DNA of 32,973 nucleotides, taken from assembly GCA_011526275.1 (NCBI GenBank), contig WTJP01000140.1, forward strand, positions 1 through 32,973. Reading direction: 5' to 3'. Shown here piece after piece: positions 12,845 through 29,878 of the stretch. The stretch comes from Candidatus Arcticimaribacter sp. GTDB lineage: Bacteria; Bacteroidota; Bacteroidia; Flavobacteriales; Flavobacteriaceae. The position numbers and the translations under genes are program-made. The first letter of the stretch is position 1, and every line of letters starts with the position of its first letter. The notes under the pieces were generated by a model. The model did not search any database. It was not told where the DNA came from and was given only the letters and a program-made list of their open reading frames with translations.

Positions 12845-12856
12845 CATAAATATTAA

Positions 12857-12907
12857 CGAGGAAGGATTTGACTGATTGCAAACCTCGAGAAAAAAATGCT
12901 AAAACAG
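12857..12907 (+). ncRNA. SAM-II-type riboswitch aptamer in the 5' leader of metK
   Basis: CGAGG-AAGGATTTGACTGATTGCAAA-CCTCG-AGAAAAAAATGCTAAAACAG. P1 = 12857-12861/12883-12887; pseudoknot pairs GCA 12878-12880/TGC 12897-12899 and CTG 12872-12874/CAG 12905-12907; conserved GATTT...ATTGCAA...AAATGCTAAAA segments match the remembered metX SAM-II architecture. Confidence 0.82.
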
Positions 12908-12909
12908 AA

Positions 12910-12956
12910 TTGCTTTCGTTGAACGAGCGAATCTTCAAAATCCTTCCAGAAAGCAA
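12910..12956 (+). promoter_or_regulatory. Candidate expression-platform hairpin between the aptamer and the metK start codon
   Basis: TTGCTTTC (12910-12917) is perfectly complementary to GAAAGCAA (12949-12956), 6 nt before ATG 12963. Confidence 0.5.
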
Positions 12957-16775: not shown

Positions 16776-17777
16776 ATGACACCCATAGAAACAGCTTTGC
16801 AGGAAAAAATTTTAGTGCTTGATGGTGCCATGGGGACCATGTTACAAGCCTATAAATTTGAGGAGGAGGATTTTCGTGGGGAACGATTTAAGGACCACCC
16901 TTCACCTTTAAAAGGGAACAATGATTTACTATCATTAACACAGCCCGAAGCCATTAAAGCAGTACATCGAGAATATTTTGAAGTAGGTGCCGACATCGTT
17001 GAGACCAATACCTTTTCTTCTACTTCTATAGGAATGGCCGATTATGCCATGGAAGATTTGGTTTATGAACTTAATTTTGCCTCTGCTCAACTGGCAAAAA
17101 CAGTGGCTGATGAGTTTACTCAAGCCAACCCACACAAACCACGTTTTGTAGCGGGTTCTATTGGACCAACTAACCGTACAGCTAGCATGTCGCCCGACGT
17201 GAATGATCCTGGTTATCGAGCCGTTACTTTTGATGAACTCGTGGAGGCCTACAGCGAGCAAGTTCGGGGTTTAGTCGATGGTGGCGCCGATGTCCTTTTG
17301 GTGGAAACCGTTTTTGATACCTTAAATGCAAAAGCCGCCTTGTTTGCGATTGATGTCTTAAAAGAGGAAAACAATTGGGATATCCCAGTCATGATTAGTG
17401 GAACCATAACAGATGCCAGTGGAAGAACTCTCTCCGGTCAAACGGTAGAGGCTTTTGCGGTATCGGTATCGCATATTCCTTTATTGAGCATTGGTTTTAA
17501 TTGCGCTTTAGGAGCCGATCAATTACTCCCTTATTTACGCCGACTATCGAATACAACAGAAACATTGGTTTCTGCTCACCCCAACGCAGGCTTACCCAAT
17601 GCCTTTGGGGCTTATGATCAAACCCCAGAAGAAATGCGGGATTTGATTCAAAAATATTTAGATGAGAATTTGGTCAACATCATTGGTGGATGCTGTGGTT
17701 CAACCCCAGAGCATATCCGTCAAATTGCAGAGGTGGCCATGCAACACAAACCCAGAAAAGTTTCTTTGAACGCCTAA
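16776..17777 (+). CDS. metH: Methionine synthase N-terminal module (homocysteine S-methyltransferase domain), separate ORF
   Basis: 333 aa; [72 protein letters not shown]. Confidence 0.93.
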
Positions 17778-20452
17778 TGGAAGCACGCTATTTAAAACTT
17801 TCTGGACTTGAGCCGCTGGTGGTTACCCCAGAGTCGAACTTTGTCAATGTGGGGGAGCGTACCAATGTAACAGGATCGCGTAGATTTTTACGCTTAATTG
17901 AGCAAGGAGATTATACGACAGCTATCGAAATTGCCCGCGACCAAGTAGAAGGAGGCGCGCAAATCCTAGATGTCAATATGGACGAGGGAATGATCGACGG
18001 AGCAAAAGCCATGACCACCTTCCTCAATTTATTGGCGGCAGAACCCGACATTTCCCGTATCCCAATCATGATTGATTCCTCGAAATGGGAAATCATTGAG
18101 GCAGGCCTTAAAGTAGTGCAGGGGAAATGCGTTGTCAACTCCATTAGTTTAAAAGAAGGAGAAGCCAATTTTATTCAGCAGGCGAAAACCATTCGTCGCT
18201 ATGGCGCAGCGGTTATTGTGATGGCCTTTGACGAAGCAGGACAAGCCGATACCCTAGACCGCCGGATTGAGATTTGTAAACGTTCCTATGATATCTTAGT
18301 GGAGAAAGTAAATTTCCCTTCAGAAGACATCATCTTTGATCCTAATGTTTTTCCCGTAGCAACCGGAATGGAAGAGCATAAGCTCAATGCCTTGGACTTT
18401 TTTAAATCGGCCAAGTGGATAAGAGAAAACCTCCCAAATGCTCATGTGAGTGGCGGGGTGAGTAATGTTTCTTTTTCTTTTCGTGGGAACAATCGTGTGC
18501 GTGAGGCCATGCATTCCGCATTCCTCTACCACGGCATTCAGCACGGGATGAATATGGGGATTGTAAATCCTACCATGTTAGAGATTTACGATGAAATCCC
18601 GAAAGACTTGTTGGAATATGTAGAGGATGTTTTGCTTAATCGTAGAGACGACGCTACCGAGCGTTTACTCGATTTTGCCGAGACCTTAATCAACGACCAG
18701 AAGGACAAGAAAGTTGAGGTTAAAGCATGGAGAAACGATGCTCTTCAAGATCGCATTACCCACTCTTTGGTAAAAGGAATCGACGAATTCATTGAAGAAG
18801 ACGTAGAAGAAGCAAGACAAAGCGTACATCGCCCGATTGAAGTGATCGAAGGCCACCTAATGAACGGGATGAACGTGGTGGGTGACTTGTTCGGTTCAGG
18901 GAAAATGTTCTTGCCCCAGGTGGTAAAATCTGCTCGAGTAATGAAAAAAGCAGTGGCCTATCTTTTACCCTATATCGAAGCAGAAAAAGACGGAAAGCAA
19001 GAAGCTGCTGGAAAAATTTTGATGGCAACGGTAAAAGGCGATGTGCACGATATTGGAAAGAATATTGTGGGCGTTGTGCTGGCTTGCAACAATTATGAAA
19101 TCATCGATTTGGGTGTTATGGTTCCCCCAGAAAAAATCATTGAAACCGCTGTTAAAGAACAGGTAGATATCATTGGTTTGTCGGGACTTATTACCCCTTC
19201 TTTGGATGAGATGATTTATATCGCACAAGAATTAAAGCGTCAAGATTTAGACATTCCGCTCTTGATTGGTGGGGCGACGACTTCCAAAGCCCACACAGCA
19301 GTAAAAATTGCTCCTGAATTGGATTCTTCCGTTGTTCATGTGAACGATGCCTCTCGTGCGGTTACAGTAGCGGGAAGTTTACTCAACAGCGAAAGTTCTG
19401 CTGACTATAAAAACAGTATAAAAGAAGAATACACTGCTTTTCGCGCCAAGTTCTTGGACCGACAAGAGACCAAAGAACACATTGACCTTGCAACTGCAAG
19501 AAAGCGAAAACTACAGTTGGATTGGGAAAATTTCACTCCTTTTACACCCAAGCAAACAGGAGTTCAAATCATCGAGAATCAAGATTTAGATGCCTTGGTT
19601 CCCTACATCGATTGGAGTCCTTTCTTCCGTTCTTGGGATTTACACGGGCGTTATCCCGATATTCTCAATGACGCTATAGTGGGAGAACAAGCGACCGATT
19701 TATTTGCCGATGCCCAGGTTATTTTGACCGAAATTTTGGACAAAAAGCTCCTTACAGCAAAAGCTGTTTTTGGTTTATTCCCTGCCAATGCGGTTGCCGA
19801 CGACGATATTGAAGTGTACACCAATGACCAACGCGAGGAAGTGGCGGTCAAGTTCTTGACCTTACGCCAGCAACTCAAAAAACGCGAAGGAAAATCCAAT
19901 GTAGCTTTGGCCGATTTTATCGCACCAAAAGCCAGTGGAAAACCCGATCACATAGGCGCCTTCTGCGTCACAGCTGGTTTTGGAACGGCAGAATTGGCAA
20001 AACAATATGAAGAAGCAAACGACGACTACAACGCCATTATGGTGAAAGCATTGGCCGACCGTTTGGCCGAAGCCTATGCGGAGTATCTGCACGAACAGGT
20101 GAGACGTCAGCACTGGGGTTATGCCGCAGAAGAGCAGCTCGATAACGAAGCCCTCATCAAGGAATCTTACAAAGGCATTCGCCCAGCACCGGGCTATCCT
20201 GCCTGCCCCGATCATTTGGAAAAAAACACCATTTGGGAACTGCTCAAAGTAGAAGAAAATATAGGCGTAAGTCTAACCGAAAGTTTGGCCATGTGGCCGG
20301 CTGCTTCGGTTTCGGGCTACTATTTTGCCCACCCGGAAGCACATTATTTTGGCGTGGGAAAAATTACCCAAGACCAAGTGAAGAGTTTTGCAGAAAGAAA
20401 GAATATTGCTGTGGAAGAAGCAGAGAAATGGCTTCGCCCAAACCTTAAATAA
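17777..20452 (+). CDS. metH: Methionine synthase C-terminal modules (methyl-THF, cobalamin-binding and reactivation domains)
   Basis: Start at the ATG in TAATG (17775-17779): [14 protein letters not shown]...; [49 protein letters not shown] (B12 DxHxxG), [15 protein letters not shown] (activation domain). Confidence 0.95.
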
Positions 20453-23048: not shown

Positions 23049-24140
23049 TTATAAACTTAAATGGGTGTCGTCGCAAAAAGGACCTTTTTTGGTGGCCTTG
23101 CAATTACAAAGGCGCACGGGACCAGTGCGTTTAGCGGTAAACTTGAGGGGTTTAATTTTTGTTCCATGGTGTGATCCATCGCAAAAAGGCTGCGTTTGAC
23201 TGCGCCCACAGGCACACCACAAGTATTCTTTTCCTTTGGTTAATTCTACATTTAAGGCCTCTTTTGTGGCAGTGTCTTCGTGTTTAAAATCTCTGTGCCA
23301 CTCACTTCTTTTGTCCTTCGAGCTAACAAAAGGGTAGAAGTAAGCCGCTGTCCAATCGTCTTCGGTTTTGCGGTGTAAGCCATAGGCCTCTGGATAGCTG
23401 GTTTGAAAGGTAGCGGTGCCAAAAAGTTGGTCCCATAAGCTAAACATATTGCCAAAATTCCCATTGGGATCACTTGCCTTGTCGAGCATGGAAGTCCCGT
23501 GGTGCGAATGGTGAAAAGAAGGCGTTATGATGATGCGTTCCACCACTTTGATAATGGGCTTAAGCGCAGCGTATTTGTAAAAAGGTTTATCCCATTTTAG
23601 GGTACTGTGCGAGCTAATAATGATCAATTGTTTAATGACTAAGCCCAAAGCAACGGCTTTAGCTCCGCCGGCATAAACCACAAATCCAACCCACCAAATA
23701 TTGGGCATCATCATGTAGTAGAGCATTGCATTGCGGTAGGAAACAAAGTAACCCATTTCTTCTGCTTGGTGGTGACTGCGGTGCAGTTTCCATAAAAATG
23801 GATACTCATGAGCAGAGCGGTGGTACCAATATTGAAGTACATCGTCGAGGAGAATATACCCGAAGAATAGAGGTACAAAGGAGAGAGACTTTAAAAGTTG
23901 TGTTCCTTCGGGATAGAGGGAACTACCCATAAAATAGACCGTTGCGACAATTGCTGGTTTAATCCCGGTGGAGAGGAAAAGAAAGCTAAAAACCTCTTGA
24001 ATCCAGTCGCCTTTCGAGCGTTTTGAATTGGCTAAAAAACCCGAAATGGATTCCATTAAACCAAAACCAATGAGGATGCCTAGAACGAGATAAACGTCAA
24101 AATTTTCGATTGCGAGTAGAGAGGAGAGGAGTTGCTTCAT
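23049..24140 (-). CDS. Sterol desaturase/fatty acid hydroxylase-like membrane protein with C-terminal tandem CDGSH iron-sulfur motifs
   Basis: 363 aa; YWYHRSAHEYPFLWKLHRSHHQAEEM and SFHHSHHGT His clusters; C-terminus CACGRSQTQPFCDGSHHG and CNCKATKKGPFCDDTH. Confidence 0.9.
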   Translation of the reverse strand: MKQLLSSLLAIENFDVYLVLGILIGFGLMESISGFLANSKRSKGDWIQEVFSFLFLSTGIKPAIVATVYFMGSSLYPEGTQLLKSLSFVPLFFGYILLDDVLQYWYHRSAHEYPFLWKLHRSHHQAEEMGYFVSYRNAMLYYMMMPNIWWVGFVVYAGGAKAVALGLVIKQLIIISSHSTLKWDKPFYKYAALKPIIKVVERIIITPSFHHSHHGTSMLDKASDPNGNFGNMFSLWDQLFGTATFQTSYPEAYGLHRKTEDDWTAAYFYPFVSSKDKRSEWHRDFKHEDTATKEALNVELTKGKEYLWCACGRSQTQPFCDGSHHGTKIKPLKFTAKRTGPVRLCNCKATKKGPFCDDTHLSL

Positions 24141-25723
24141 TATTCTTCGTCATTTTTTCTAAAGGTGGGTACGATACGTGCTTTTGTTTTTTGTTCAAAA
24201 CCATAGGCTATTTCGATGAGGGTGGGTTCACTCCATGCACGTCCAAAAATGGAGAGCCCAACGGGAAGTCCGTGAATATTCCCCATGGGTACAGTAATGT
24301 TAGGGTAGCCTGCCCATGCAGCTGGGGAGGAACTGCCGATGTGGTAATTGTCTCCGTTAAGCCAGTCGGTGCTCCAAGCTGGGCTTCCAGTGGGAGCGAT
24401 AATGGCATCGAGTTGGTGTTCATTCATCACCCGATCCATTCCCTCTTGCTGACTCATGCGTTGTAAATTGGACAAAGCAGTTAGATAGGCCTCGCTATCG
24501 AGCCCTTCTTTTTCTTGCGCCATTTTTAAGTAAGCTTGATTGTAGTATTTCAATTCAAGGCTGTCTTGCTCATTGAAAGCGATGAGTGCTTCTAAGTTTT
24601 CAATAGCGGCTTTTTCACCTAAAGAGGAGAAGTAGTCGTTTAGTCCAGCTTTGTATTCATGCAACATCACTTGAAAAGAGTGCTGCCCTGTACCACGGGG
24701 GGCAATTTCATCGATTTCAATAAGGCTAGCCCCTGCTGCTTTAATCAAGCGAACCGATTGTTGCACCAAAGAATCTACCTGCGGATTTGCACCTAGTGGA
24801 GCGGTGTAAAGTGCGATGCGTTTACCTGCAAGTCCGTTGGGCTTAAGGTAGGGGGTGTAGTCATCTAAGGCCTTATTTTTACTCGCTGCAGTTTTGCTGT
24901 CTTTGGTATCGATGCCTGTTAAGCCACCCAACGCAATAACCGCATCGGTAAGGGTGCGTGCCATGGGGCCGGCAGTATCTTGTGTAAATGAAATGGGGAT
25001 GATGCCTGAACGACTGATAAGCCCAACAGTGGGTTTAATGCCTACAATACCATTGGCGTTCGATGGACACACAATCGACCCATTCGTTTCTGTCCCAATG
25101 GCTAAAACGGTGAGGTTGGCCGAGACAGCAACGCCAGATCCCGAGCTTGAACCGCAAGGGTTTCGCGTTAAGACATAAGGATTCTTGGTTTGACCATTGA
25201 TACCACTCCAGCCACTTGAAGAATGTTGCCCGCGAAAATTGGCCCACTCGCTTAAATTGGCTTTCGCTAAAATTACCGCTCCTGCTTCCCGGAGTTTTTT
25301 CGCGACATAACTGTCTTGTAGTGGTTTAGAGTTTTGCAGTGCGCGTGAGCCTGCCGTAGTATTCATTTTATCGTGGGTATCAATATTGTCTTTTAAAACC
25401 ACAGGAATACCGTGTAAAGGTCCGCGTATTTTTCCCGCAGCCAACTCCTTGTCCAACTGTTCTGCTATGGAAAGGGCATCGGGGTTGATCTGAATGATGG
25501 ACCGTAATTGTGGGCCACTAAAATCGACCTCCTCAATGCGCTCGAGATAGGCTTGGGTGATTTCTTTGATGGTGAATTCCCCTTCATGATAGCCCTCTTT
25601 TAAGCCTTGAATATCGATTTCCATATATTCAAATTCATTGGGATCGTGTTCTATTTTTACTTCCGCTGTAATACAACTAAACAGGAGGAATGGGAGGAAA
25701 TAAAAGAGGCGTTTCGGCATCAT
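24140..25723 (-). CDS. Amidase family protein, probable lipoprotein
   Basis: 527 aa; lipobox-like FLPFLLFSC; GIPVVLKDNIDT, NPCGSSSGSGVAVSANLTVLAIGTETNGSIVCPSNANGIVGIKPT amidase signature. Confidence 0.92.
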   Translation of the reverse strand: MMPKRLFYFLPFLLFSCITAEVKIEHDPNEFEYMEIDIQGLKEGYHEGEFTIKEITQAYLERIEEVDFSGPQLRSIIQINPDALSIAEQLDKELAAGKIRGPLHGIPVVLKDNIDTHDKMNTTAGSRALQNSKPLQDSYVAKKLREAGAVILAKANLSEWANFRGQHSSSGWSGINGQTKNPYVLTRNPCGSSSGSGVAVSANLTVLAIGTETNGSIVCPSNANGIVGIKPTVGLISRSGIIPISFTQDTAGPMARTLTDAVIALGGLTGIDTKDSKTAASKNKALDDYTPYLKPNGLAGKRIALYTAPLGANPQVDSLVQQSVRLIKAAGASLIEIDEIAPRGTGQHSFQVMLHEYKAGLNDYFSSLGEKAAIENLEALIAFNEQDSLELKYYNQAYLKMAQEKEGLDSEAYLTALSNLQRMSQQEGMDRVMNEHQLDAIIAPTGSPAWSTDWLNGDNYHIGSSSPAAWAGYPNITVPMGNIHGLPVGLSIFGRAWSEPTLIEIAYGFEQKTKARIVPTFRKNDEE

Positions 25724-25779
25724 AATAGTCGTTCAATCAGTTGTAAATTACGGTTTTTTGCAAAAAAGGAAAGAAAAAT

Positions 25780-25809
25780 TTGTTTTTATCTCTGGAGATA
25801 GTAGTTTTG
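25780..25809 (+). promoter_or_regulatory. Promoter of the pheA operon (TTG -33, TAGTTTTG -7)
   Basis: TTG 25780-25782, 19-nt spacer, TAGTTTTG 25802-25809; predicted start just before the leader ORF. Confidence 0.75.
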
Positions 25810-25827
25810 CAGGGTTATTAAACAAAA

Positions 25828-25896
25828 ATGAACAATACGTTTTTTTACTACAACAGCTTTTATTTCTTCTATCAAGAGGAGAAAGGGACTTTGTAG
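25828..25896 (+). CDS. Phe/Tyr-rich leader peptide of a transcription attenuator
   Basis: ATG AAC AAT ACG TTT TTT TAC TAC AAC AGC TTT TAT TTC TTC TAT CAA GAG GAG AAA GGG ACT TTG TAG = MNNTFFYYNSFYFFYQEEKGTL*; 5 Phe + 4 Tyr in codons 5-15, using both synonymous codons of each. Confidence 0.88.
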   Translation: MNNTFFYYNSFYFFYQEEKGTL

Positions 25897-25920
25897 TGAA
25901 TGAACGCTAAACCATAAATG

Positions 25921-25952
25921 AAGTCCTGAATATTGTTCGGGACTTTTTTTTT
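25921..25952 (+). terminator. Attenuator: intrinsic terminator between the leader peptide and pheA
   Basis: AAGTCCTGAA (25921-25930) pairs with TTCGGGACTT (25936-25945; one G-U), loop TATTG, followed by T tract to 25952; 8 nt before the pheA ATG with no other upstream + strand gene to terminate. Confidence 0.9.
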
Positions 25953-25960
25953 GAATTAAG

Positions 25961-26788
25961 ATGAAAGAAAAAATCGCCATACAAGGAATTAAAGGTTCAT
26001 TTCACCATGCGGTGGCTATGGACTATTTTTCTCCTGAGGTTGCTTTAGAAGAATGCCTTAGTTTCGACGCTGTAGTCGATGCACTTTTGAGCGGGAAAGT
26101 AAAGCAGGCGGTTATGGCATTGGAGAATTCCATTGCAGGATCGATTATCCCCAATTATGCGCTCATCGATCATAACAACTTGACCATAGTGGGGGAGTAT
26201 AACTTGAATATTCACCACAACTTAATGGCCTTGGAGGGGCAAGGCATTGAAGAACTTACCGAGGTGCACTCGCACCCGATGGCACTTCTACAGTGTAAAG
26301 CTTTTTTCAAGCAATACCCACACATTAAACTCATTGAAGCATCCGACACAGCCGATGTTGCCCGTAAAATTTCAGAGGAAAAATTACTTGGAATAGCGGC
26401 CATTGCCCCAAAAGAAGCTGCGCATATTTACGGCTTAAACCTTTTGGCAACTTCTATACAAACCATTAAAAACAATGTAACCCGTTTTGTGGTGGTGCAG
26501 CAAAAAAATGGAGCTTTACCCAAAGACCAAGTCAATAAAGCTTCGTTAAAGTTTGTCCTCGACCACCAGCGGGGAAGTTTGGCTGCTGTGCTCAATGTAA
26601 TGAGCGATTGCCTGTTAAATTTAACCAAGATACAGTCCCTCCCAGTCATTGAAACCCCAGGGAAGTATGCCTTCTTTGTGGACATGACTTTTGACACCTA
26701 CGAACAATACGACAAAGCACGCAAGATTTTAGCCATCATGGCGTTAGAATTTAAAATATTAGGCGAATACGCCGACGCAAAAAAATGA
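25961..26788 (+). CDS. pheA: Prephenate dehydratase (monofunctional, ACT domain C-terminal)
   Basis: 275 aa; IAIQGIKGSFHHAVAMDYF, VMALENSIAGSIIPNYALI, NNVTRFVVV (TRF motif), ESLPV-like SLPVIETPGKYAFFVD. Confidence 0.93.
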   Translation: MKEKIAIQGIKGSFHHAVAMDYFSPEVALEECLSFDAVVDALLSGKVKQAVMALENSIAGSIIPNYALIDHNNLTIVGEYNLNIHHNLMALEGQGIEELTEVHSHPMALLQCKAFFKQYPHIKLIEASDTADVARKISEEKLLGIAAIAPKEAAHIYGLNLLATSIQTIKNNVTRFVVVQQKNGALPKDQVNKASLKFVLDHQRGSLAAVLNVMSDCLLNLTKIQSLPVIETPGKYAFFVDMTFDTYEQYDKARKILAIMALEFKILGEYADAKK

Positions 26789-27939
26789 AGATGATTACCG
26801 CTACACGATTGGAAAGCGTTAAAGAGTACTACTTCTCCAAGAAATTGCGCGAAGTGGCAGGCTTGGTACAACAAGGGAAACCCATCCTCAACATGGGAAT
26901 TGGTAGTCCCGATTTGCCTCCGCACCCCTCGGTAGTCGAGGCATTGCAAGCGGGGTTAAGCCACCCCAAAGCACATATGTACCAAAGTTATCAAGGGCTT
27001 CCTGAATTGCGTCAGGCCATGGCCGATTTTTACCAACGCAACTATGCCGTTGATTTGGATCCCAACCGAGAAGTACTGCCTTTAATGGGCTCGAAAGAAG
27101 GGATCATGCACATTTCCATGGCTTTTCTCAACAAAGGCGATGAGGTCTTGATTCCTAATCCGGGTTATCCAACCTACAGCTCGGTGACACAATTGGTCGA
27201 GGCGCGCCCTGTTTTTTATGACTTAAACGAGGCAGCGGGCTGGCAACCAGATTTTGAAGCCTTAGAGCGACTAGATACCACAAAAATAAAGCTGATGTGG
27301 GTCAATTATCCACATATGCCGACTGGGACAAAGGCGCAAGCTGCAACCTTTGAACGTCTAATTGACTGGGCTAAAAAGAATGAGGTATTGTTGGTCAACG
27401 ACAATCCCTATAGTTTTATCTTAAACGAGGAGCCCCAAAGCCTTTTGAGCTTTCCGGGAGCCAAAGCCGTTGCTATGGAACTCAACTCTTTGAGCAAATC
27501 CTTCAATATGGCTGGCTGGCGTGTAGGACAACTTTCAGGGAATGCAGAAAATATTCAAGCGGTTTTAAAGGTAAAAAGCAATATGGATTCGGGTATGTTC
27601 TACGGGATTCAGCAAGGGGCAATCGCTGCGCTCAATGCGCCGTCTTCTTGGTTTGCTGAATTGAATGCTACCTACCGCAAACGCCGCAGTTTGATTGAAA
27701 CTTTGGCGACTTCCATGAATACCACTTTTGATCCGAACAGTGTTGGACTCTTTGTTTGGGCCAAGCTCAACGACGATCGCCTCACTGCAGAGGCTTATAT
27801 AGACGAATTGCTGTACGAGAAAGACATCTTCATTACCCCAGGAACTATTTTTGGTTCCCAAGGAGAAGGCTATGTACGCTTTTCTTTGTGCGTGACTGAA
27901 GAACAAATACAAACTGCTATAAACCGAATGCAAGCATGA
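26785..27939 (+). CDS. Class I/II PLP aminotransferase (probable aromatic/aspartate type)
   Basis: 384 aa; NMGIGSPDLPPHPSVVEAL, NPGYPTYSSV, SLSKSFNMAGWRVG; ATGA overlap with pheA. Confidence 0.9.
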   Translation: MKMITATRLESVKEYYFSKKLREVAGLVQQGKPILNMGIGSPDLPPHPSVVEALQAGLSHPKAHMYQSYQGLPELRQAMADFYQRNYAVDLDPNREVLPLMGSKEGIMHISMAFLNKGDEVLIPNPGYPTYSSVTQLVEARPVFYDLNEAAGWQPDFEALERLDTTKIKLMWVNYPHMPTGTKAQAATFERLIDWAKKNEVLLVNDNPYSFILNEEPQSLLSFPGAKAVAMELNSLSKSFNMAGWRVGQLSGNAENIQAVLKVKSNMDSGMFYGIQQGAIAALNAPSSWFAELNATYRKRRSLIETLATSMNTTFDPNSVGLFVWAKLNDDRLTAEAYIDELLYEKDIFITPGTIFGSQGEGYVRFSLCVTEEQIQTAINRMQA

Positions 27940-28793
27940 AAATTTATGTAATTGGTATCGGTTTAATTGGTGGTTCCATGGCTTTGGATCTAAAAGATCT
28001 TGACCCTGCCCATGAAATTATTGGAGTTGATACCAATGCTGCTCACTTAGACGAGGCCCTTTCTTTAGGGATCATCGATCAAAAGGCTACCCTAGATACG
28101 TTGAATGAAGCCGATCGTGTGATTTTAAGTATTCCGGTAAAAGACAGTATGCGTTTACTTCCTGGACTACTCGATCAATTGCACCAAGATGCTTTGTTGT
28201 GGGATGTAGGTTCGACCAAAGAGCAATTGTGTAAGGTAGTGGAAAACCACCCAAAACGCGACCAATACCTCGCAGCGCATCCCATTGCTGGAACGGAATT
28301 CTCGGGCCCCAAGGCGGCGCACAAAGGCTTGTTCTCTGGAAAACCACAAATCTTGTGTGAAGCCAAGTCAACCCGTTCTGACTTGTTAATTTGGGCCAAA
28401 ACAGCTTTCCGTCAAATGGGCATGTACCTGCGCTTTATGGATCCGAAGGAGCACGATCGCCACATGGCTTGTGTTTCTCACCTATCGCACATCAGTTCTT
28501 TTATGTTAGGGAAAACGGTACTTGAACAAGAAGCCGATGAACAAAATATTTTTGACTTGGCGGGCAGTGGATTTGAATCGACGGTGCGTTTGGCCAAAAG
28601 TTCTCCCGAAATGTGGACCCCAATATTTGAACAAAACAAAGCCAATGTGATCGATATTTTGAGCGATTACATTGATAACTTACAGAATTTCAAACGCAAA
28701 TTGGAAGACGATCAGTTCGATGATTTGCATCAACAAATGAAAAATACGAATCAATTAACCACCATTCTTAACGGAATTAAACACAACAATTAG
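27936..28793 (+). CDS. tyrA: Prephenate dehydrogenase
   Basis: 285 aa; IYVIGIGLIGGSMALDL, DVGSTKEQLCKVVE, AAHPIAGTEFSGPKAA, HDRHMACVSHLSHISSF; ATGA overlap with the aminotransferase. Confidence 0.93.
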   Translation: MKIYVIGIGLIGGSMALDLKDLDPAHEIIGVDTNAAHLDEALSLGIIDQKATLDTLNEADRVILSIPVKDSMRLLPGLLDQLHQDALLWDVGSTKEQLCKVVENHPKRDQYLAAHPIAGTEFSGPKAAHKGLFSGKPQILCEAKSTRSDLLIWAKTAFRQMGMYLRFMDPKEHDRHMACVSHLSHISSFMLGKTVLEQEADEQNIFDLAGSGFESTVRLAKSSPEMWTPIFEQNKANVIDILSDYIDNLQNFKRKLEDDQFDDLHQQMKNTNQLTTILNGIKHNN

Positions 28794-28795
28794 AT

Positions 28796-29878
28796 ATGGA
28801 AAATTCACCCGCAATGCGCCAATGGTTAGATAACTTTGGACTTTCACACCCACTGGTTATTGGAGGACCTTGTAGCGCCGAAACTGAAGAGCAAGTCATG
28901 AAAATTGCTCATGAACTCAAAGATACCGATGTAACGGTTTACCGTGCCGGTATTTGGAAACCAAGAACGCGCCCTGGAAATTTTGAAGGGGTAGGTGCTA
29001 TTGGATTAAAATGGCTACAACGTGTTAAAGAAGAAACGGGTCTTTTGACGGCTACAGAGGTTGCCAACAAAGACCATGTTAAGTTGGCTTTAGAGCACGA
29101 TATCGATATTCTATGGATTGGTGCACGTTCTACTGTGAGCCCATTTATCGTTCAAGAAATTGCAGACGCATTGGAAGGAACCGATAAAATTGTATTGGTG
29201 AAAAACCCTGTCAATCCTGATGTTGCCCTTTGGTTGGGTGGTATTGAGCGTTTGTACACAGCCAATATCAAAAACCTTGGTCTCATCCATAGAGGATTCT
29301 CTTCTTATGGAAAATCAAAATACCGCAACAACCCAGAGTGGCAGATTGCTGTTGAGGTACAAAATCGTTTCCCCGATTTACCGCTCATTTGTGATCCATC
29401 GCACATTACAGGAAAACGCGACATGATTTTTGATACTTGTCAAATGGCGCTAGACCTCAACTTCGACGGTTTAATGGTGGAAAGTCACTGGGATCCAGAC
29501 AATGCTTGGAGTGATGCTGCACAGCAAGTTACCCCTACGGCTTTAGTGCAAATCATGAAAGACTTGAAAATTCGCGAGGCTACTACCGATGAGGAAAATT
29601 ATCAGACCGAGTTACAAAACTTACGTGCACAAATTGATATTGCCGATCAGGCTATACTTGACACCCTTGGAAAACGCATGAAAGTTGCCGAGGCTATTGG
29701 GGAAATTAAAAAAGCCAACAATGTAGCAGTATTGCAAAATAAACGTTGGAATGAAATCCTAGGAAAAATGGTTCTCGAAGGAGAAGAACGCAACCTTTCT
29801 GAAGAATTTATTCTACGCTTGTTTAAAGCCATTCACCAAGAATCGATCAATCATCAAGAGCAGATCGTGAAAGGATAA
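28796..29878 (+). CDS. Bifunctional DAHP synthase / chorismate mutase (AroQ type)
   Basis: 360 aa; VIGGPCSAETEEQVMKIAHEL, VYRAGIWKPRTRPGNFEGVG, CDPSHITGKRD; C-terminal LRAQIDIADQAILDTLGKRMKVAEAIGEIKK (AroQ). Confidence 0.95.
   Translation: MENSPAMRQWLDNFGLSHPLVIGGPCSAETEEQVMKIAHELKDTDVTVYRAGIWKPRTRPGNFEGVGAIGLKWLQRVKEETGLLTATEVANKDHVKLALEHDIDILWIGARSTVSPFIVQEIADALEGTDKIVLVKNPVNPDVALWLGGIERLYTANIKNLGLIHRGFSSYGKSKYRNNPEWQIAVEVQNRFPDLPLICDPSHITGKRDMIFDTCQMALDLNFDGLMVESHWDPDNAWSDAAQQVTPTALVQIMKDLKIREATTDEENYQTELQNLRAQIDIADQAILDTLGKRMKVAEAIGEIKKANNVAVLQNKRWNEILGKMVLEGEERNLSEEFILRLFKAIHQESINHQEQIVKG

Follow-up and report, generated by a model that had tools for sequence, protein, structure and literature searches.

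The leader of the pheA-aminotransferase-tyrA-DAHP synthase/chorismate mutase operon reads, very probably, as a ribosome-mediated transcription attenuator that would sense charged tRNA-Phe and tRNA-Tyr. In the window (the whole stretch of 32,973 nucleotides of Candidatus Arcticimaribacter sp. DNA that was analysed) the element belongs to a known, classical type of switch, ribosome-mediated transcription attenuation of a Phe-Tyr operon. We computed the attenuator parts, their mutually exclusive pairings, their conservation and their covariation. The nearest named relatives of the window were 'Candidatus Arcticimaribacter' and other Flavobacteriaceae. The operon contained the following genes:

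25961..26788, + strand: pheA, prephenate dehydratase, the first structural gene of the operon (Pfam PF00800, 188 bits)
26785..27939, + strand: PLP-dependent aminotransferase class I/II, overlapping pheA (Pfam PF00155); from its context, probably an aromatic amino acid transaminase
27936..28793, + strand: tyrA, prephenate dehydrogenase (NCBIfam NF006307 above cutoff; PF02153 and PF20463)
28796..29878, + strand: fused DAHP synthase-chorismate mutase (PF00793 and PF01817)

The ends of these four genes overlap or almost abut. Judged from gene content, the predicted products make both Phe and Tyr, and the name "pheA leader" understates the scope of the operon. The upstream neighbour is an amidase (24140-25723) that is divergent from the pheA operon, so the terminator before pheA does not serve it. 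The promoter and leader features were as follows:

25780..25809, + strand: predicted Bacteroidota-type promoter, TTG (-33), 19 nt, TAGTTTTG (-7 element 25802-25809), from the pattern TTG N17-23 TAnnTTTG
25828..25896, + strand: leader peptide ORF MNNTFFYYNSFYFFYQEEKGTL, stop codon TAG 25894-25896, from translation
25838..25872, + strand: region 1, the Phe/Tyr codon run and 5' side of the 1:2 hairpin (25838-25906), from the MFE pairing table
25885..25891, + strand: region 2, GGGACTT, alternative partner of region 1 (1:2) and region 3 (2:3), from folding and from covariation with region 3
25919..25931, + strand: region 3, the terminator 5' arm with core AAGTCCT (25921-25927), from the terminator scan and pairing
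25935..25946, + strand: region 4, the terminator 3' arm GTTCGGGACTTT, from the terminator scan and pairing
25944..25952, + strand: U-tract of the intrinsic terminator, nine T, from the sequence

Nine of the 22 codons of the window leader specify Phe or Tyr, all between 25840 and 25872, and none specifies Trp; the TAG stop codon is followed by an in-frame TGA. The terminator scan showed a single terminator-like site in 25600-26100, with its stem at 25920-25946. The pheA translation start sits right behind this terminator, with 8 nt from the end of the U-tract to the ATG (25944-25961). From the promoter pattern, transcription is expected to start at about 25814-25817, and the leader ORF should therefore begin roughly a dozen nucleotides after this start. 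A similar -7-like element was found in 103 of 110 relatives at a median of 18 nt 5' of the leader ATG, and 75 of these also had a TTG at suitable spacing. The -7 elements of the family (for example in loci L006 and L030) were mostly TACTTTAG or TACATTAG, unlike the match to the TAnnTTTG consensus in the window.

To determine the occurrence of the element, we searched 251 genomes of the family for prephenate dehydratase and examined the upstream regions of the best 110 of 230 hits; among the homologues with lower scores, G178 was examined as a spot check and has a leader. In all 110 of these best hits, pheA was preceded by a Phe/Tyr-rich ORF with an ATG start and then by a terminator. A separate collection of named relatives showed the Phe/Tyr-rich leader and the terminator in 80 of 80 genomes, with an ATG start in 79; in the single exception (L186), inspection by eye suggests a TTG start. 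Beyond the family, in the order and the class, the element recurred with other leaders and other arm sequences. About two thirds of the class-level loci examined (L220-L244) had a leader, and the terminator of two of them (L225 and L243) was missed by the scan yet visible in the sequence. Some class-level relatives (L220-L224, L227, L231, and L235) were without the element. A long open frame in L221 and L222 (aroA-like by eye) ends a few bases before pheA, which places pheA inside another operon there. One locus (L139 at about 1220-1500, in genome G275 of family f14) carries two Phe-rich leaders in tandem before the pheA homologue, and each leader has a separate terminator; from the sequence this is possibly a double attenuator. 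Stretches of His codons were sought in the genome of the window with 25 matches, and no His leader was seen among the ten loci inspected.

Leaders of 76 representatives averaged 39.5% Phe plus Tyr. The pooled leaders were composed of 26% Phe, 15% Tyr, and 3% Trp, with Trp present in 54 of the 76. Asn was also frequent (9%, found in 75 of 76). The fold energy of the leader was below that of synonymous recodings in 75 of 76 relatives, with z = -4.0 for the window. In three genomes (G161, G224, and G172) region 2 lies after the stop codon of the leader and yet at an unchanged distance from its start, which argues that the RNA is conserved and not the end of the peptide. These observations bear on a reading in which the leader peptide works through its nascent chain, by metabolite-induced ribosome arrest as in TnaC, and not by stalling at hungry codons. 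A leader peptide is indeed conserved in the whole family, and motifs such as YFWNGFYFYFFF recur in it. However, its length, order and flanking residues vary freely across the class while the Phe/Tyr richness is kept, its C-terminal residues follow the needs of the region-2 RNA (GTGLL, NETLYV), and region 2 can even lie past the stop codon, so that we regard arrest by the nascent chain as very improbable.

The 146-nt leader folded at -43.5 kcal/mol (z = -6.65), and none of 200 shuffled sequences folded equally well. All five strings quoted in the original prediction were found at their positions; GGGACTT at 25885-25891 is identical to the 3' arm of the terminator at 25939-25945, as had been pointed out, and pairs with AAGTCCT at 25921-25927 through six Watson-Crick pairs and one G-U pair. 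The prediction had also described a weak upstream hairpin at 25857-25885 that merely abuts region 2. Folded alone, this hairpin is weak (-6.7 kcal/mol), but it is only a fragment of a hairpin at 25838-25906 with -25.6 kcal/mol, stronger than 3:4 (-14.0) and 2:3 (-11.5). This 1:2 hairpin, a protector hairpin overlapping the control codons, does not abut region 2 but overlaps and sequesters it, pairing six of its seven bases together with the leader stop codon. The larger hairpin strengthens the attenuator model, as it keeps region 2 concealed in the absence of a ribosome. Within it, the Asn codon at 25852-25854 is partly paired with 25891-25892, and the folding suggests that this codon may serve RNA pairing rather than sensing. 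Across relatives the mean probability of region 2 pairing with region 1 was 0.27, and the mean P(2:3) in free RNA was 0.62. Since the dominance of 1:2 over 2:3 is weaker in relatives than in the window, the state without translation may differ among species.

We modelled the ribosome as a mask blocking the 5' part of the RNA up to 14 nt past the first base of the A-site codon, with the RNA extending to 25930. In free RNA of this length 1:2 formed and P(2:3) was 0.00. Every stall position tried on a Phe/Tyr codon gave a P(2:3) of 0.96-0.98. The stall on the last Tyr codon (mask to 25884) leaves exactly region 2 free, with the edge of the mask just reaching it. Stalling one codon past the last Tyr lowered P(2:3) to 0.42 and two codons past it to 0.00, and with the ribosome at the stop codon only 3:4 was left. 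Constrained folding thereby reproduced both outcomes that had been proposed, termination with a ribosome at the stop codon and a free region 2 forming 2:3 with a ribosome stalled on Phe/Tyr codons. When region 4 was added base by base, 2:3 persisted to about 25942 and was then overtaken by 3:4. In full-length RNA at equilibrium 3:4 beat 2:3 in every ribosome state, and the antitermination decision must therefore be kinetic. The E. coli pheL control (L255), folded under a like protocol, went through the folding states in the same order; masked up to nt 45, it too favoured 3:4 at equilibrium in the late stages. This like calculation suggests that kinetic antitermination would also apply to E. 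coli pheL.

Covariation of region 2 with region 3 was measured by an alignment-free test, in which the best Watson-Crick helix was scored between the 3' part of each leader and its own or a swapped terminator 5' arm. This test was used instead of column-wise pair counts on a MAFFT alignment, in which a one-column shift of region 2 in the GTCTC-armed clade made the 2:3 covariation look smaller than it is. RNAalifold on alignment A1 recovered the 3:4 helix alone, as expected because of the competing alternatives; each of the eight core 3:4 pairs was retained in at least 72 of the 76 representative sequences. For the 76 family representatives the own-arm score was 16.5 against 13.1 ± 0.38 for swapped arms (0 of 5000 permutations). 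The GTCCY-armed subgroup alone showed 16.9 for own arms against 15.9 ± 0.27 (0 of 5000 permutations), and the GTCTC-armed subgroup alone showed weak covariation, with 346 of 5000 permutations as good. In the control with the first 45 nt of the leader, own and swapped arms were no different in the family test. At the class level, 30 diverse loci gave an own-pair score of 18.4 against 12.5 ± 0.5 for swapped pairs (0 of 20,000 permutations). The pairs of region 2 and region 3 at this level included GGATTGT/ACAATCC, AGCGGGA/TCCCGCT, GAGCGGTC/GACCGCTC and ACGGGAGG/CCTCCCGT, and further matched examples across the class were TCAGGATTGT/ACAATCCTGA and AGGCGGGA/TCCCGCCT. The permutation statistics do not remove kinship; the arm changes were nonetheless repeated in separate families.

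The covariation also contradicts a constitutive intrinsic terminator whose only role is to damp readthrough into pheA, with the GGGACTT repeat due to chance and a spurious small ORF. Such a terminator would agree with the equilibrium folding, where 3:4 always wins, and with the finding that 3 of 200 codon-shuffled leaders of the window sequence reached the observed 2:3 helix score. Region 2, however, tracks region 3 across dozens of species with altered arms, and the ORF is kept in all the family genomes examined, with a promoter-like element in nearly all; we give constitutive termination even less credence than arrest by the nascent chain. The attenuator reading with four regions, as originally proposed, is supported by constrained folding, by its presence in practically all family members examined and by the covariation of regions 2 and 3. 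A lack of competing 2:3 pairing in folding or covariation had been named as the outcome that would speak against it; 2:3 was seen in both, in the family and in the class.

In the mechanism that we infer for the window leader, RNA polymerase would initiate at about 25815 and a ribosome would start translation of the leader at the AUG at 25828. With plentiful Phe and Tyr, the ribosome would reach the stop codon at 25894 and cover region 2 (25885-25891), region 3 would then pair with region 4, and transcription would end at the U-tract. With Phe or Tyr in short supply, the ribosome would stall at one of the nine Phe/Tyr codons (25840-25872) and break the 1:2 hairpin. This would free region 2 and allow a kinetic commitment to 2:3 before region 4 is made, so that the polymerase would enter pheA. 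If no ribosome is loaded, 1:2 would conceal region 2 and the terminator would form.

We compared the element with known systems. Attenuators of trp, his, and other amino acid operons of Proteobacteria (Yanofsky type) form the ribosome-mediated class; the window element shares this mechanistic class, but differs in amino acid, host phylum, and leader. Vitreschak and colleagues reportedly mentioned attenuator candidates in Bacteroidetes/Chlorobi in 2004. The enterobacterial phe attenuator (pheL-pheA; Rfam RF01859, Phe_leader) has in common with the window a Phe-rich leader peptide, a competition of four regions and a U-tract terminator directly before pheA. In contrast, its sequence is unlike that of the window, where the leader reads Tyr besides Phe, with Trp a frequent addition among relatives, and where tyrA and DAHP synthase belong to the operon as well. 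RF01859 was the best sub-threshold match to the window, spanning the whole element (25827-25951) with 25.3 bits (E = 0.03), below the gathering score of 55. The seven relatives that we tested likewise stayed below this gathering score, while E. coli reaches 132 bits, and no Rfam model matched the pheA leader of the window at its gathering score. Control of the alternative helices by a protein, a small RNA or a direct ligand (riboswitch, T-box) and not by a ribosome, which could equally have mutually exclusive terminator and antiterminator helices as its output, is as remote as constitutive termination, given that the region matches no Rfam family at its gathering score and that the conserved information is a Phe/Tyr-rich reading frame, needless for such mechanisms.

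A flavobacterial transcriptome study (Guerin et al., 2021, PMC9723704) has described a structured 5' transcript region preceding pheA in Flavobacterium psychrophilum that is shared with further genera of Flavobacteriaceae and absent from Rfam, and the same study reported 'strong clues' of leader-peptide attenuation before amino acid biosynthesis operons. For this pheA element, the main text of PMC9723704 gives no leader peptide, pairing or covariation. Relative to that main text, the leader peptide, pairing and covariation for the window and its relatives are new here, as is the extension outside the family.

The attenuator hypothesis extends beyond the window. We see about an even chance that much of the class Bacteroidia shares a separate attenuator lineage which senses Phe together with Tyr, and Trp too in many species, working in a phylum where translation initiation is mostly independent of Shine-Dalgarno sequences, and that the conservation of this lineage implies tight transcription-translation coupling in Bacteroidota, at least in these leaders. 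Ribosome-mediated attenuation requires a ribosome close behind RNA polymerase, and an attenuator kept through much of the class would therefore be indirect evidence of such coupling; to our knowledge there is little direct evidence of it in Bacteroidota. The arms turn over in sequence while the pairing is preserved, and the leader is a ready reporter for tests of coupling. With this element, Phe/Tyr synthesis gains a defined regulatory model. It is also a candidate Rfam family, conserved in much of a class that has no recorded RNA family model for it.

Elsewhere in the window, a SAM-II riboswitch (12852-12912, + strand; Rfam RF01726, 74 bits against a gathering score of 44) lies directly 5' of metK (12963) and of a methionine gene cluster reaching to about 21416. 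Methionine synthase is seemingly split there into two overlapping ORFs, 16776-17777 and 17690-20452 (window 16776-20452, + strand).
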